From assembly GCA_026461075.1 (NCBI GenBank), contig JAPJNH010000053.1, forward strand, positions 1 to 46,727: a stretch of 46,727 nucleotides of DNA, read 5' to 3'. The notes beneath the pieces are model-generated. The model searched no databases. It was not told the origin of the DNA and saw only the letters and a list, made by a program, of their open reading frames with translations. The translations under genes were made by a program, and so were the position numbers. Positions 1 to 23,797 of this stretch are shown here, piece by piece; position 1 is the first letter of the stretch, and each line of letters starts with the position of its first letter. The stretch comes from Chitinophagales bacterium (GTDB taxonomy: Bacteria > Bacteroidota > Bacteroidia > Chitinophagales > CAIODY01).

Positions 1-360
<360 letters not shown>

Positions 361-425
361 TATTTTTTTTTCTAATTACTTCAATCTTATATTGATTCGT
401 TATTTACCAATATGTCTAACCTTTT

Positions 426-536
426 TATGGCGACTATGCAGTGCGTGTTCACCCCTTCCCATTCCGAACAGGGTCGTTAAGCCGCACATGGCCTATGGTA
501 CTGTACAACAATACGGGAGAGTGGGTTGTCGCCAAC
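426..536 (+). rRNA. 5S ribosomal RNA
   Basis: The terminal helix TGGCGAC (428-434) pairs with GTCGCCA (528-534). Between them are the conserved internal block CCATTCCGAACAGGG (about 459-473) and GGGAGAGT near the 3' side, both diagnostic of 5S rRNA. The length of about 107-111 nt is normal for Bacteroidota. It follows 23S rRNA in the same direction and is closed by a strong intrinsic terminator. Confidence 0.93.
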
Positions 537-546
537 TCTTTATTTT

Positions 547-18457: not shown

Positions 18458-19288
18458 ATGACTTTAAACGAATTGAGTGCGGCGGCAGAAAGTTTTCCTT
18501 TGACACCAACTTTTCCAGTATTATTCTTGGGACATGGTAGTCCGATGAATGCGATTGAAGAGAATTCTTTTGTTGCTTCCTTTCGCGCTTTAGGAAAGGA
18601 GTTGCCACATCCAAAGGCCGTGCTTTGTATTTCGGCACATTGGTATATTAAAGGTACGAAAGTGTGTCAGGTAGCACATCCTGAGACGATACATGATTTC
18701 TATGGTTTTCCAAAGCCGTTGTTTGATGTACAGTATCCGGCTCCGGGATCACCTTCTCTAGCTAAAGAAACGCAGCTGCTATTAGCACCCTTAGTGCAAG
18801 CGTCCTTGACAGATGAGTGGGGCTTAGATCATGGTGCCTGGTCGGTTTTAAAGCACGTATTCCCCCATGCTGATGTACCTATTGTGCAATTGAGTATTGA
18901 TTATAGTTTGCCTCCTGAAATGCATTTTGAAATAGGTAAGCAATTGAAAGCTTTGCGTCAACGCGGAATTCTAATTGTCGGTAGTGGCAATATCGTTCAC
19001 AATTTGGGATTGGTAGATTTCGCGCGTATCAATGATGAAGGCTACGGATTCGATTGGGCGGTAGAGGCGAGAGCAAAAACGAATCAATGGATTATGGGTG
19101 GAGATATAGAATGTTTAATTCATTATCAAAAACAAGGACGTGCACTTCAACTCGCGGCTCCGACACCAGAACATTATCTGCCACTGCTCTACGTTTTAGG
19201 AGCTGCCGATAAAAAGGAAAGTCTGACACTCTTCAACGATAAGCTTCTTGCGGGTTCGCTCAGCATGACCTCTGTCAAGATTGGCTAA
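18458..19288 (+). CDS. ygiD: YgiD-type extradiol dioxygenase (4,5-DOPA dioxygenase family)
   Basis: A 276-residue LigB-family metalloenzyme. The four expected metal ligands are in place with E. coli YgiD-like spacing: His26 in GHGSPMNA, His61 in ISAHW, His181 in GNIVHN and His239 in PEHYLPL; the catalytic-type His125 is in GLDHGAWSVL. Family members cleave catechols such as L-DOPA, giving betalamic-acid-like products, though the physiological substrate in bacteria is not settled. It is co-transcribed with the flippase upstream and closed by a strong terminator. Confidence 0.88.
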   Translation: MTLNELSAAAESFPLTPTFPVLFLGHGSPMNAIEENSFVASFRALGKELPHPKAVLCISAHWYIKGTKVCQVAHPETIHDFYGFPKPLFDVQYPAPGSPSLAKETQLLLAPLVQASLTDEWGLDHGAWSVLKHVFPHADVPIVQLSIDYSLPPEMHFEIGKQLKALRQRGILIVGSGNIVHNLGLVDFARINDEGYGFDWAVEARAKTNQWIMGGDIECLIHYQKQGRALQLAAPTPEHYLPLLYVLGAADKKESLTLFNDKLLAGSLSMTSVKIG

Positions 19289-19290
19289 AT

Positions 19291-19323
19291 AAAAAAGCCT
19301 CCTAAGTGTTAGGAGGCTTTTTT
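19291..19323. terminator. Bidirectional terminator between convergent genes
   Basis: The stem GCCTCCTAA (19297-19305) pairs with TTAGGAGGC (19309-19317) around GTG and is flanked by A6 on the left and T6 on the right, so it can end both the YgiD unit and the minus-strand secreted protein gene. Confidence 0.92.
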
Positions 19324-19340
19324 GCTTTTTCAGTTATTTA

Positions 19341-21143
19341 TTATTTGTATTCAATCTTATAGAAATAGAATACCTGACGGCGTCCGCCGATTAATTTACC
19401 TTTTGTCTTGATCGATTCATAACCATACGCGATGAAGTAATTATCAAACCAATATTCCACATTACTTCCCGAAGTACTTACTACTTTATCTGTTTCTTTA
19501 CCTGTATTGATCGCTGCGGTGAAAGTACCATTCTGCATCTTACCATTGTTCACCACTTTAGAGCGCAAGGATTTTCCATCATTATAAACGATTACGATAT
19601 CTTCATCATCAGGATTACTCATCACTGTTGTATGCGGATATAAGCCATAAGGCGGGGTATAGAAATTGATTGGGAATACATTATTCCATAGCATGTCACC
19701 ATTCTCAGGATCGAAACAAGCTACTAATGCTTTTGTGAAAACATAACCATCAAATACCTGGCGCGTATGCCAAGCCTTTCCATCATAATAGGTTTCTGTG
19801 TGATAGTGCTCATAGTAGAATTCACCAATCATAATGATACCTTCTTTGGTTTCGATAGGGTCGTGGAATAAAACTTCCTGACTAGTAGAGTAATCTATAT
19901 CCTTGTTGCCACTCTCTGCATCTTTAAAGAAGTTTTTGAAAGGATAGCAACGTAAGAATTTCTGTTTTCCTTTTACCAATTTAGAGATATAAAAACCGGT
20001 AGTTAATAAACCGTCGGTGATATGACCGTGTTTTAGTTTTTTACGTGTGAAGCCTTTAATGTTTTCTCCATATTTAGAGTAAGAGCCAACAGCTAAAATA
20101 CTTTTATCGCCTAGGGTGCTTACTGCAACTTCATTTAAGCCGATGCCTTGTTTTGCAGGGATTTCATATTCACGACCTTCTTTACCACCTTGTCCCATCA
20201 ACTTTACGTATTGCACGAAAAGATCTTTTTTAGTGGCTTGTTTGCAGAAAGAAACCGCTACGTTAGACGAGTCGATACCACGAGAGATATTGCTTACAAA
20301 TCCTTTATTGTCGTTTTGAGAAATAGGGAAAGAAGAGATTTGCTTGCCTTTGAAATCAGCATAGTACAGCATTGGGTGGAACTTCACGGCATTGTCGCCA
20401 CCTACTGCACAATAGTAGATACCGCAGGTCATTAAGGTAAGGATGGTACGACCACAAATTTCCTTTTGGGTTGGATTGGAGAAACCGCCGAAGTAAACCG
20501 TGCTTTGCGACATATACATGTCGGTGATAGTTGTTGGGGTAGGGAGTAAGCCAGTAACGGAGTTGCACTTGTTCTTACGAACATTGTACTGCACCATTTC
20601 CACTTCCTTGCTGTAGCCATTGGCCATGCCTGTATTTACAGGTACCGCTAAAAGGATATAAACCATCTTACGAGACTTATCATAAATTGCTTTTACGAAG
20701 TTTACTTTTTTGCTCGCCATGTATTCTGTGCGCGCTACTTCTTTAAAGTCGGTATTGTATTTTACAAAGATCCATTTCTTCTGACCATCTTTGCTGCGTT
20801 CGTCAGATTCATAAAAAAGAATAATCCCTTCGTCTCCGGTAGGAACGAGGTTGATATTGTCGGAATTGAAGGAAGCTTCGATTTCTACACGGTTTTTGCC
20901 TTTTTTCTTTGGCTTTACTTCTTCTTCGTCGCCTTCTTCACTTGTGCTTTTTGACTTTTTCTTGCTGATTTCTGGTGCAGCTTCACCTTCATCGCCTTGG
21001 TTTTCGTCTTCGGTACTACTTGTAGTGGCAGAATTTTCTTCAGTATCGGCCTTTTTTGTCTTTTTCGACTGAGCCATGCTCGGTGTGCCCATGAAGCATA
21101 AAAGCGTCAAAATCAGGCTAAAAATCAGGGTACGTTTAAACAT
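19341..21143 (-). CDS. Secreted protein of unknown function with charged low-complexity linker
   Basis: A 600-residue exported protein I do not recognise. A signal peptide (1-24, ending SMAQ) is followed by a Lys/Glu/Ser-rich linker (about 26-84), then about 500 residues of beta-rich sequence with repeating strands such as GIILFYESDE, VYILLAV and GIIMIGEFYYE, suggestive of a beta-propeller. No catalytic motif or T9SS sorting domain is apparent; the protein ends FYFYKIEYK. ATG 21143 is chosen because the longer frame opens with a TTG (21164-21162) that is the end of a TATTTTTG promoter box. It is a single-gene unit with its own promoter and terminator. Periplasmic or outer-membrane-associated location is a guess. 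Confidence 0.72.
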   Translation of the reverse strand: MFKRTLIFSLILTLLCFMGTPSMAQSKKTKKADTEENSATTSSTEDENQGDEGEAAPEISKKKSKSTSEEGDEEEVKPKKKGKNRVEIEASFNSDNINLVPTGDEGIILFYESDERSKDGQKKWIFVKYNTDFKEVARTEYMASKKVNFVKAIYDKSRKMVYILLAVPVNTGMANGYSKEVEMVQYNVRKNKCNSVTGLLPTPTTITDMYMSQSTVYFGGFSNPTQKEICGRTILTLMTCGIYYCAVGGDNAVKFHPMLYYADFKGKQISSFPISQNDNKGFVSNISRGIDSSNVAVSFCKQATKKDLFVQYVKLMGQGGKEGREYEIPAKQGIGLNEVAVSTLGDKSILAVGSYSKYGENIKGFTRKKLKHGHITDGLLTTGFYISKLVKGKQKFLRCYPFKNFFKDAESGNKDIDYSTSQEVLFHDPIETKEGIIMIGEFYYEHYHTETYYDGKAWHTRQVFDGYVFTKALVACFDPENGDMLWNNVFPINFYTPPYGLYPHTTVMSNPDDEDIVIVYNDGKSLRSKVVNNGKMQNGTFTAAINTGKETDKVVSTSGSNVEYWFDNYFIAYGYESIKTKGKLIGGRRQVFYFYKIEYK

Positions 21144-21161
21144 TTTAAGGAATTTGAGCGT

Positions 21162-21169
21162 CAAAAATA
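21162..21169 (-). promoter_or_regulatory. -7 box of the secreted-protein gene
   Basis: Perfect TATTTTTG on the minus strand, 18 bases before the ATG at 21143. Its terminal TTG is in frame with the gene and could be mistaken for a start codon. Confidence 0.6.
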
Positions 21170-21255
21170 CATATTTTTTTGCCTGGATTTGTGGATTATA
21201 TAGAATTTAGGTCAAGTTCTTAATGTAGAATTAATCTAATAATGAGAAAAAGTAT

Positions 21256-21263
21256 TATCTTTG
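21256..21263 (+). promoter_or_regulatory. -7 box of the candidate small RNA
   Basis: Perfect TATCTTTG in the 224-base gap between divergent genes. The next structure downstream is a terminator at 21304-21344 rather than an open reading frame, and the peptidase gene has another box of its own at 21356. No clear -33 TTG is present. Confidence 0.5.
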
Positions 21264-21267
21264 CACT

Positions 21268-21344
21268 CTGAGGCTAACCGCCCCAAAACGAAACCCGAGT
21301 TCGAAATCCGTCAGTATGTGGTTGTACTGACGGATTTTTTTTAT
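21268..21344 (+). ncRNA. Candidate small RNA of about 75 nt
   Basis: A -7 box (21256-21263) and a strong terminator bracket about 75 bases with no start codon followed by a sensible frame. Besides the terminator hairpin, a small hairpin CGAA(89-92)/TTCG(300-303; positions within 21289-21303) can form. The element is unlikely to be an attenuator of the M1 peptidase gene, because that gene has its own box immediately after the terminator. It does not match preQ1 or SAM-II riboswitch patterns I know. The class and the 5' end are unproven. Confidence 0.4.
21304..21344 (+). terminator. Intrinsic terminator of the candidate small RNA
   Basis: A perfect 13-bp stem, AAATCCGTCAGTA (21304-21316) with TACTGACGGATTT (21325-21337), has an 8-nt loop and a T8 tail. 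No gene on the plus strand ends upstream of it within 2 kb, so it needs an independent transcript. Confidence 0.88.
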
Positions 21345-21355
21345 GCTATTAATTT

Positions 21356-21363
21356 TATCTTTA
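21356..21363 (+). promoter_or_regulatory. Candidate -7 box, M1 peptidase (leaderless-type spacing)
   Basis: TATCTTTA, one base off TAnnTTTG, is followed by exactly four bases (GCCT) and the ATG at 21368. An active promoter here would give an mRNA beginning at or next to the start codon. Confidence 0.5.
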
Positions 21364-21367
21364 GCCT

Positions 21368-23797
21368 ATGAAAAACTTGCTCGCGTTATTGTTGCTGTCC
21401 ATTTCCATTTTTACAGCTAATGCTCAGTCCTTTATTCAAACTACCATAGGCGAACCCTATGCACATCCAGTCGATATTACGCGACTAAAACTCGAAGTGT
21501 CGTTCCAATTAGCAGAAGGCATTGTCAATGGTGAGGTGACACATTATTTCACCGCATTGCAAAATACAGATACCTTGTTTTTGAATGGCATTGATATGCA
21601 GTATGAAAAAGTAATGTATCATGGAAAAGAGCTGAAGTATTCCGCTACTAGCACAGGTATTACTTTGCGTTTCCCAAAAACATTGAAAGTGGGTAGTAAA
21701 GATTCTGTCTATATTCAATATCAATGCACGCCACGCAAAGGAATTTATTTCATCGGATGGAAGCCAAATCAAGGCGGACGCAAACAGATATGGACGCAAG
21801 GTGAAGGTGAAGACAATCGTCATTGGATACCGATGTATGATGGACTCAACGATAAGATGATAACGGAGACAATCGTACATTTTCCAGCAGCCTATGAAGT
21901 ATTATCGAACGGAACTTTAATTTCTTCCACCAAGGATAAAAAGAATCCTGCGATGAAGATATGGCATTATCGCATGCAACATCCGCATAGCACGTACTTA
22001 ATCATGCTCGGTATCGGAGAATATAAAATCGAACATCGCGTAACGAAGTCGGGTGTGCCTGTTAACCTTTATTATTATCCAGATCAAGCGGATCGTGTAG
22101 GACCAACCTATAAATACGCTACCGAAGCCATCGACTTCATGGAGCAACAAACCGGTATCCGCTATCCATGGGAAAGTTATAGTCAAATTCCTGTACAAGA
22201 CTTTATGTATGGTGCTATGGAAAATACCACAGCGACGATATTTGGCGACTTCTTACAAAATGATGCGCGTGGCGCCATTGACAATACCTATATCGGTGTG
22301 GATGCACATGAGTTGACGCATCAGTGGTTTGGAGATTATGTCACAGGGAGAAGCTGGAAGCAAATTTGGTTGCAAGAAAGTTATGCTACCTATTATCCAA
22401 AAATCTTTACGCGTCAACTATACGGACGTGATTATTACGAATGGAATCGTCGGAACGAACATCGTGCAGCATTATCCTTAGCGGAGAACAATCAATTGCC
22501 AATTGTACATCCTGGTCCGGGCACCGCACGTATTTATCAAAAAGGTTCAGCGGTAATCGACATGCTAAATTATGTGTATGGGGAAGAATCTTGGAAGCGC
22601 GTCATTCATTATTATCTTACACATCATCCATATTCAAACGTTGAAACAAACGATTTATACCAAGCTTTTCAAGATACCTTAGGAGTAGTACCTGATTGGT
22701 TTTTCAATGAATGGTTGTATAACGGAGGCGAACCGAAATATGAAGTAAGTCATAAACAAATGGTTCAAATGGATGGTCATTATACCACTCAATTCACCGT
22801 AGAACAAAAGCAAGAATTGAAGGAAGGTGTAGGCTTATTCAAGATGCCTATTGATGTAGAAGTATTCTATAGCGATCGTAGCTACGACTCCGTTAGAGTA
22901 TGGGTCGACGAGGCACGTGAGGTGTTTGACATTCCGAATCCAAAGAACAAACAAGTGTCATTTATTTTGTTTGACCCAGGATCTTATATTTTAAAGAAAG
23001 TTACGGTTAAGAATACCGACGAGCAATGGTTGAATCAAGTGATGTTATCTCCACACATGATTGATCGTTATGATGCTGTTCTTGCATTACGCAGCGCGCC
23101 TTTATCTTTCAAACGAGCTACTTATTTGGCACAGTTAAAGGCCGAGCATTTCCATGCGGTGAAAGTAGAAATCATGAATCAGTTGAAAGGAGATACAAGT
23201 CGTACAACAAATGAAGCATTTGCATTTTATATGCATGATCAATACAGCGAAGTTCGTCAAGCAGCTATACGAAATATTGATTTAAGCGGACCTTCGCTTA
23301 TGAAGAATATCGATTTAATTGAATCGATGTGCAAGGACTCTTCCTATGTTGTAATCAGTGTTGCCTTAGATCGTTTGCAGGAAGTTGAAAATGTGCATTC
23401 TACCATAAAGGTATTACAAGAACTCCGTAAGGAAGGTGTTTGTGGGGTAGGGAATAGTTTGCGTATTAAAGTATTAGAACGTTTAGCTGCGAATGAAAAA
23501 GAGTTCCCAGCATGCCGTGATACCTTGATCAGTCTTTGTTCTCCGGCTCATGAATTTCAGACTAGAAGAAATGCAGCAGAGGCTTTGAAGCGTTTAAAAG
23601 TTTTAGATTCTGATTTGTTTGTTTATCTACTAGAAGCGAAGTGCTCTTTCAATACACGTTTGAGCGGTCCGATTGATAATGTCTTAAAGTATTATTTAGA
23701 CAGTACGGAAGGTCGCCGTTATGTCGAATCTGTTTATCGCGCGAGTAAATGGACAGAACGCGAGCGAGCAATTTTGGAACCGATGTTTAAACGTTAA
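21368..23797 (+). CDS. M1 family metallopeptidase (aminopeptidase N-like), exported
   Basis: An 809-residue zinc aminopeptidase with a signal peptide (1-20, ANAQ). The exopeptidase motif GAMEN is at 282-286. Zinc ligands are His314 and His318 in HELTHQW and Glu337, exactly 19 residues on (QESYATYY). After the catalytic domain, residues about 560-800 form helical repeats resembling HEAT, as in other M1 enzymes. It probably trims peptides in the periplasm. It carries its own leaderless-type promoter and lies 15 bases before the Ig-like lipoprotein gene, which also has a box of its own. Confidence 0.92.
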   Translation: MKNLLALLLLSISIFTANAQSFIQTTIGEPYAHPVDITRLKLEVSFQLAEGIVNGEVTHYFTALQNTDTLFLNGIDMQYEKVMYHGKELKYSATSTGITLRFPKTLKVGSKDSVYIQYQCTPRKGIYFIGWKPNQGGRKQIWTQGEGEDNRHWIPMYDGLNDKMITETIVHFPAAYEVLSNGTLISSTKDKKNPAMKIWHYRMQHPHSTYLIMLGIGEYKIEHRVTKSGVPVNLYYYPDQADRVGPTYKYATEAIDFMEQQTGIRYPWESYSQIPVQDFMYGAMENTTATIFGDFLQNDARGAIDNTYIGVDAHELTHQWFGDYVTGRSWKQIWLQESYATYYPKIFTRQLYGRDYYEWNRRNEHRAALSLAENNQLPIVHPGPGTARIYQKGSAVIDMLNYVYGEESWKRVIHYYLTHHPYSNVETNDLYQAFQDTLGVVPDWFFNEWLYNGGEPKYEVSHKQMVQMDGHYTTQFTVEQKQELKEGVGLFKMPIDVEVFYSDRSYDSVRVWVDEAREVFDIPNPKNKQVSFILFDPGSYILKKVTVKNTDEQWLNQVMLSPHMIDRYDAVLALRSAPLSFKRATYLAQLKAEHFHAVKVEIMNQLKGDTSRTTNEAFAFYMHDQYSEVRQAAIRNIDLSGPSLMKNIDLIESMCKDSSYVVISVALDRLQEVENVHSTIKVLQELRKEGVCGVGNSLRIKVLERLAANEKEFPACRDTLISLCSPAHEFQTRRNAAEALKRLKVLDSDLFVYLLEAKCSFNTRLSGPIDNVLKYYLDSTEGRRYVESVYRASKWTERERAILEPMFKR

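Follow-up and report, generated by a model that had tools for sequence, protein, structure and literature searches.

A predicted small RNA gene with a promoter and terminator of its own, and its paralogs, in a family of the Chitinophagales

Just upstream of an M1 family aminopeptidase gene of a Chitinophagales bacterium lies a short interval bracketed by a promoter box and a terminator, and the question is whether it encodes an RNA of its own or serves the genes beside it. The interval belongs to a stretch of 46,727 nucleotides that was analysed as a whole and is termed the window. Computation shows it to be a candidate RNA gene that is conserved, structured and present in several copies, and that has a promoter and a terminator. 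Conservation, a stable genomic place and the existence of paralogs support, at the level of sequence, the original prediction of a free-standing small RNA (sRNA). Positions 21268-21342 of the window are probably a free-standing sRNA gene with its own promoter and terminator, and the RNA, once transcribed, would most likely act in trans by base pairing of its open 5' end at start regions.

The element is headed by a -7 box, TATCTTTG, at 21256-21263 on the plus strand, which fits the Bacteroidota TAnnTTTG exactly, as had been claimed, and is identical in the sister species. From the position of this box, transcription would start at 21266-21270. The predicted RNA of about 73-75 nt (21268-21342, plus strand) is delimited by box, terminator, conservation and covariance search. 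Between box and hairpin are some 40 mostly unpaired bases, near the start of which lies the conserved 5' end GAGGCTAACCGCC (21270-21282, plus strand), a candidate seed identified from the alignments, followed by a variable A/C-rich linker (21283-21302, plus strand). The intrinsic terminator, defined by folding and alignments, is a hairpin at 21303-21338 on the plus strand with the apical loop GTGGTTG at 21318-21324 and a U tract at 21335-21342. The predicted terminator is thus present, but its stem comprises 15-16 pairs and not 13. The fold of 21266-21344 has a z-score of -4.5 and was equalled by none of 200 shuffles. A small peptide product was rejected, since no open reading frame of at least 60 aa crosses the interval, in keeping with the view that the element is non-coding. 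It was also correct that no plus-strand gene ends nearby; the closest one upstream (18458-19288) stops about 2 kb short of the element, at a terminator of its own (19290-19324). At the far upstream end of the window (1-537), the contig begins within a 23S rRNA gene, which is followed by a 5S rRNA gene.

Across the 46.7 kb of the window, a script found a single TAnnTTTG box with a strong terminator 20-90 bases downstream; 30 first-order resamples gave 0.03 such pairs on average and never more than one. In 20 further stretches of the same genome (399 kb) the script found three pairs. These three are an apparent tRNA gene, judged by eye, another copy of the RNA element and one without assignment. 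By these counts, the box-terminator arrangement is uncommon, and where it does occur it tends to point to an RNA gene. Two loci are recorded as side observations. In another family of the order (L121:1490-1571), a terminator, AAGTCCGCTTG..CAAGCGGACTT, follows a TAAGTTTG box by about 40 bases, and the pair may represent an unrelated small RNA; a second TAnnTTTG box without assignment, on contig C3 of the bacterium's own genome (L222:2277-2334), is followed after 28 bases by a terminator of 9 pairs.

Conservation in close relatives, which the original prediction made a test of the RNA, is evident in the sister species (G002), where the same element adjoins the same divergent gene. The RNA is identical at 65 of 71 positions, and box plus 5' end at 29 of 31, as compared with 49 of 75 in the intergenic sequence just upstream and 546 of 652 at the start of the divergent gene. 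R1, a covariance model made from four sequences, detected the element in all six genomes examined from the GTDB family, with E values of 4.5e-11 or better, and the result was repeated with a second model, R2. The bacterium's own genome has four copies, the sister four plus a short fifth, and each of the remaining four genomes one strong copy. R2 was built from 10 copies, with the window copy and its sister ortholog deliberately left out, and ranks these two directly after its training copies (E 1.4e-4 and 7.5e-4); within the GTDB family they score above every match other than the training copies. As both had first been found with R1, this ranking is a consistency test and not a blind discovery. 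The window copy is the most diverged of the four paralogs in its genome. The short fifth copy of the sister (L141:2369-2416, G002 contig C4), about 100 bases past another copy, has nearly lost its linker and has a poor -7 box, and it retains only GAGGUUAA (or GAGGTTAA) and the GTGGTTG hairpin; it is absent from all alignments and from the 12 copies counted below.

When R2 was run against 395 genomes of the phylum at E <= 0.001 with stricter filters, only the bacterium's own genome was matched. R1 gave 59 matches, 44 of them elsewhere in the order, outside the GTDB family, and among the 24 of these 44 that were re-scored with R2 and inspected, two have a TAnnTTTG box upstream. One of the 24 (L119) has a GUGGUU loop and no box, and apparently follows straight after a stop codon. 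The 24 inspected were read as ordinary gene-end terminators and not as members. A pattern search with the 5' end of the window copy in 396 genomes of the order returned four matches, two of which belong to the RNA family; the other two (L097, L100) have no terminator downstream and were dismissed as chance.

The 12 copies predict an RNA of about 65-75 nt whose single-stranded 5' end begins with GAGGYUA or slightly ahead of it; an A-rich linker then leads to a terminator hairpin with a GUGGUUG loop. Compensatory changes preserve the terminator stem. In A8, an alignment of the 12 copies, which was fitted to the R2 structure and therefore favours it, and in which identical rows were counted once (11 distinct of 12), 120 of 121 stem cells are paired, and five of the 11 pairs are changed on both sides, in 21 cells. 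The covariation score, 0.527, was reached by none of 500 shuffles, and the best slid control scored 0.177. A MAFFT alignment that was not fitted to any structure (A7) has 99 of 99 cells paired and a score of 0.520. The sister's window-type copy has one broken stem pair, a C.A mismatch. While linker and stem vary, all 12 copies share two heptamers, one (GAGGYUA) at the predicted 5' end and the other (GUGGUUG) in the loop of the terminator. The two are alike (G-A/U-GGUU-A/G), and their sole variation is the U/C in the first; the 5' end reads TTATAACCTC in G003-G005.

How such an RNA might act is suggested by its open 5' end, which, perhaps together with the loop, would pair with translation-start regions of mRNAs and block them. 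In the own and sister genomes together there are 28 occurrences of ATTAACCTC, the sequence complementary to the 5' end of the paralogs, and six of these are the RNA genes themselves. There is no genome-wide enrichment: with the RNA genes included, the own genome has 11 sites and the sister 17, whereas the reversed control has 29 and 48, respectively. Among the other 22 sites, only one, before an ECF sigma-factor gene, is intergenic and lies shortly upstream of a start codon on the same strand. In both species ATTAACCTC stands 21 nt upstream of the ATG of this gene (L171:1485-1530 and L189:1485-1530), within a 200-bp intergenic region; this leader is about 97% identical between the two species and about as conserved as its surroundings, so that conservation of the site says little. 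The C134 copy would form a duplex of -19.4 kcal/mol with the leader, including flanking A-U pairs, and ranks first for this energy among 360 sampled start regions; the site had been chosen for its match to the seed. The corresponding ranks are 6 for C98, 17 for C3 and 259 for the window copy. A search of stretches of G005, G001 and G003 for the sigma gene, guided by synteny, found none, and a weak match of 28% at L153 proved to be another sigma factor. The ECF sigma leader is a good lead as a candidate target of the paralogs, judged by sequence match. The window copy, with its changed seed, does not fit it, and the leader is not its target lead. Other copies could thus repress a conserved ECF sigma factor through such pairing; different targets would be expected for the window copy, whose 5' end and promoter have changed. 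A bolder version, in which the GAGGUUA 5' end and the GUGGUUG loop are both target-directed recognition heptamers with the ECF sigma factor as one target, and the window copy has diverged from the rest by acquiring a new seed and promoter, is conceivable but doubtful.

At the gathering level, Rfam returned no family in the whole window except the rRNA at its start, and none except tRNAs in the 11 loci that hold the other copies. A suggested kinship with Flavo-1 was not borne out, since no Flavo-1 row appeared in the window at the gathering level, nor in 21150-21450 when E values up to 5 were admitted. PrrF (23.9 bits, gathering score 90), NsiR1 (RF02399; 13.2 bits for the window and 20.9 for a paralog, gathering score 39) and eukaryotic miRNA rows, which were far below threshold, were rejected; NsiR1, of cyanobacteria, is a short RNA too. 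Nor did cmscan give a row for FopS or GibS at the gathering level or at E up to 5-10, the presence of FopS in this copy of Rfam being unconfirmed. A full-text literature search, for which subscription papers were mostly outside reach, found no account of the RNA family.

In its organization the family recalls sibling sRNAs, of which several similar ones occur per genome, as in the LhrC family of Listeria, Qrr and PrrF, all from unrelated hosts. Two traits of sibling sRNAs are present: several homologous copies in a genome, and, free of any reading frame, an own promoter and intrinsic terminator, here the TAnnTTTG-like box and the covarying terminator. The closest parallel in layout is FopS of Bacteroides thetaiotaomicron, a set of paralogous sRNAs described as having 12-15 copies, bands of about 65 and 70 nt, and a 5' seed followed by a terminator; FopS represses susC translation and is opposed by the RRM protein RbpB (PMC11697453). 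Like FopS as described there, the RNA is multicopy and of similar predicted size, has a single-stranded 5' stretch with a candidate seed and then a terminator hairpin, is preceded by a canonical Bacteroidota promoter, includes intergenic members, and comes from genomes with an RRM protein (PMC11697453). Judged by their sequences, RRM_1 proteins are indeed present in all six genomes of the GTDB family, and an RRM-type RNA-binding protein could be a partner, as in Bacteroides. Unlike FopS, the family belongs to a different bacterial family, has four copies here instead of 12-15, and has an invariant terminator loop, with FopS compared by description only. The resemblance is a likeness of layout, which does not establish membership. 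GibS of Bacteroides is an intergenic sRNA acting in trans, whose conserved 5' seed is single-stranded and pairs at start codons (PMC7366714), and the RNA is similarly intergenic with a conserved single-stranded candidate seed at its 5' end. GibS differs in being encoded by one gene only, and in its two seeds and its PM2 promoter. The best reading would be a new family of sibling trans-acting sRNAs of FopS-like build.

Invariant heptamers could also be read as protein-binding sites, with GAGGYUA and the GUGGUUG loop titrating an RNA-binding protein, such as an RRM protein, without pairing to mRNA. Such a decoy would be consistent with two similar heptamers, at the 5' end and in the loop, that are unchanged in 12 of 12 copies apart from U/C in the first, with several copies per genome, with RRM proteins in six of six genomes, and with a seed complement that is not enriched. 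Each RNA would offer only two sites, however, and known titrating RNAs carry many binding sites. An exposed 5' end followed by a terminator is, moreover, the layout of the FopS sRNAs, which act by pairing (PMC11697453). The decoy is accordingly held to be unlikely, and base pairing in trans is preferred.

The neighbours of the RNA bear on whether it is independent of them. Downstream in the window is the M1 family aminopeptidase gene (21368-23797, plus strand; Pfam PF01433 and PF17900), with a near-consensus box of its own outside the RNA, TATCTTTA at 21356-21363 on the plus strand. As the original prediction had noted, the peptidase gene thus carries its own box, which matches five of the six specified bases, lies 4 nt before the ATG, and is kept, identical and at equal distance, in the sister species. 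The RNA's promoter is therefore not needed by the peptidase, whose mRNA, given the 4-nt spacing, would be nearly leaderless. On the other side is a divergent gene (19341-21164, minus strand) of 607 aa with no Pfam or NCBIfam match, which stands beside the RNA in three of three genomes of the genus; its sister ortholog is 93% identical, and matches were found in 7 of 60 genomes of the order searched. In the sister, a gene for a 941-aa beta-propeller protein (SBBP) with a secretion-tail match sits between RNA and peptidase, and window positions 21343-21367 are the site of this additional gene of 2.8 kb. In a third species of the genus (G001), the RNA likewise has the divergent gene on one side and, on the other, a related SBBP gene (39% identity over 262 columns). 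Because G001 also carries such a gene, the simplest history is a deletion: the window lineage probably lost the SBBP gene and kept the RNA.

Among the 12 copies, the upstream gene is divergent in five, co-directional in six and unseen in one (contig start), and the downstream gene is co-directional in six, convergent in five and unseen in one (contig end). The six co-directional downstream genes encode the M1 peptidase, two SBBP proteins, two epimerases and one secretion-tail protein; the convergent ones include NADH-dehydrogenase and acyltransferase genes. The five copies with a convergent downstream gene cannot be leaders, and since neighbours change from copy to copy, the RNA is not the leader of any one gene. 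The view that it is not simply the peptidase leader is upheld, for the RNA remains where the downstream gene differs and its paralogs adjoin unrelated genes, which fits a free-standing small RNA. An attenuator, whose terminator would be conditionally bypassed for peptidase expression, is suggested by the peptidase ATG 25 nt past the U tract in the same direction and by the six co-directional genes, but is very improbable in view of the unrelated or convergent downstream genes, the different gene directly downstream in the sister, the peptidase box kept in both species, and folds that offer no alternative antiterminator pairing. Equally improbable is a mere terminator, or one that ends an upstream transcript, with box and 5' conservation incidental: intrinsic terminators are common and six copies follow a co-directional gene, but the five copies with a divergent upstream gene need their own promoter, so that at least these are not the 3' end of an upstream transcript, and box and 5' element are conserved separately from the hairpin and well above the sequence just upstream. 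An invariant loop is unusual for a plain terminator.

The paralogs' promoters have a further feature. Upstream of most paralogs, TACG/CGTA occurs at about -73, -62, -52 and -42 from GAGG, one helical turn apart, a spacing that tandem activator sites often have. The 12 upstream regions hold 32 such tetramers against a mean of 8.4, a count reached in none of 2000 resamples, in which orthologs are not independent. A strict motif, TACGN6TACGTA, showed no excess across the own genome (four sites against five in the control). A shared activator of the paralogs would be a lead only. The pattern is missing upstream of the window copy, its sister ortholog and the G005 copy, and such shared regulation therefore does not extend to the window copy.

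Taken as free-standing sRNAs that probably act in trans, these elements apparently form an undescribed sRNA family that is ordinary in kind, its points of interest being the invariant loop and the possible link to a sigma factor. If both heptamers do serve target recognition, with the ECF sigma factor among the targets, several small RNAs would set the level of one sigma factor. The experimental work on Bacteroidota sRNAs that was found centres on Bacteroides, and a multicopy family, supported by covariance, in an uncultured Chitinophagales lineage suggests that sibling sRNAs built from an open 5' end and a terminator are more widespread in the phylum.
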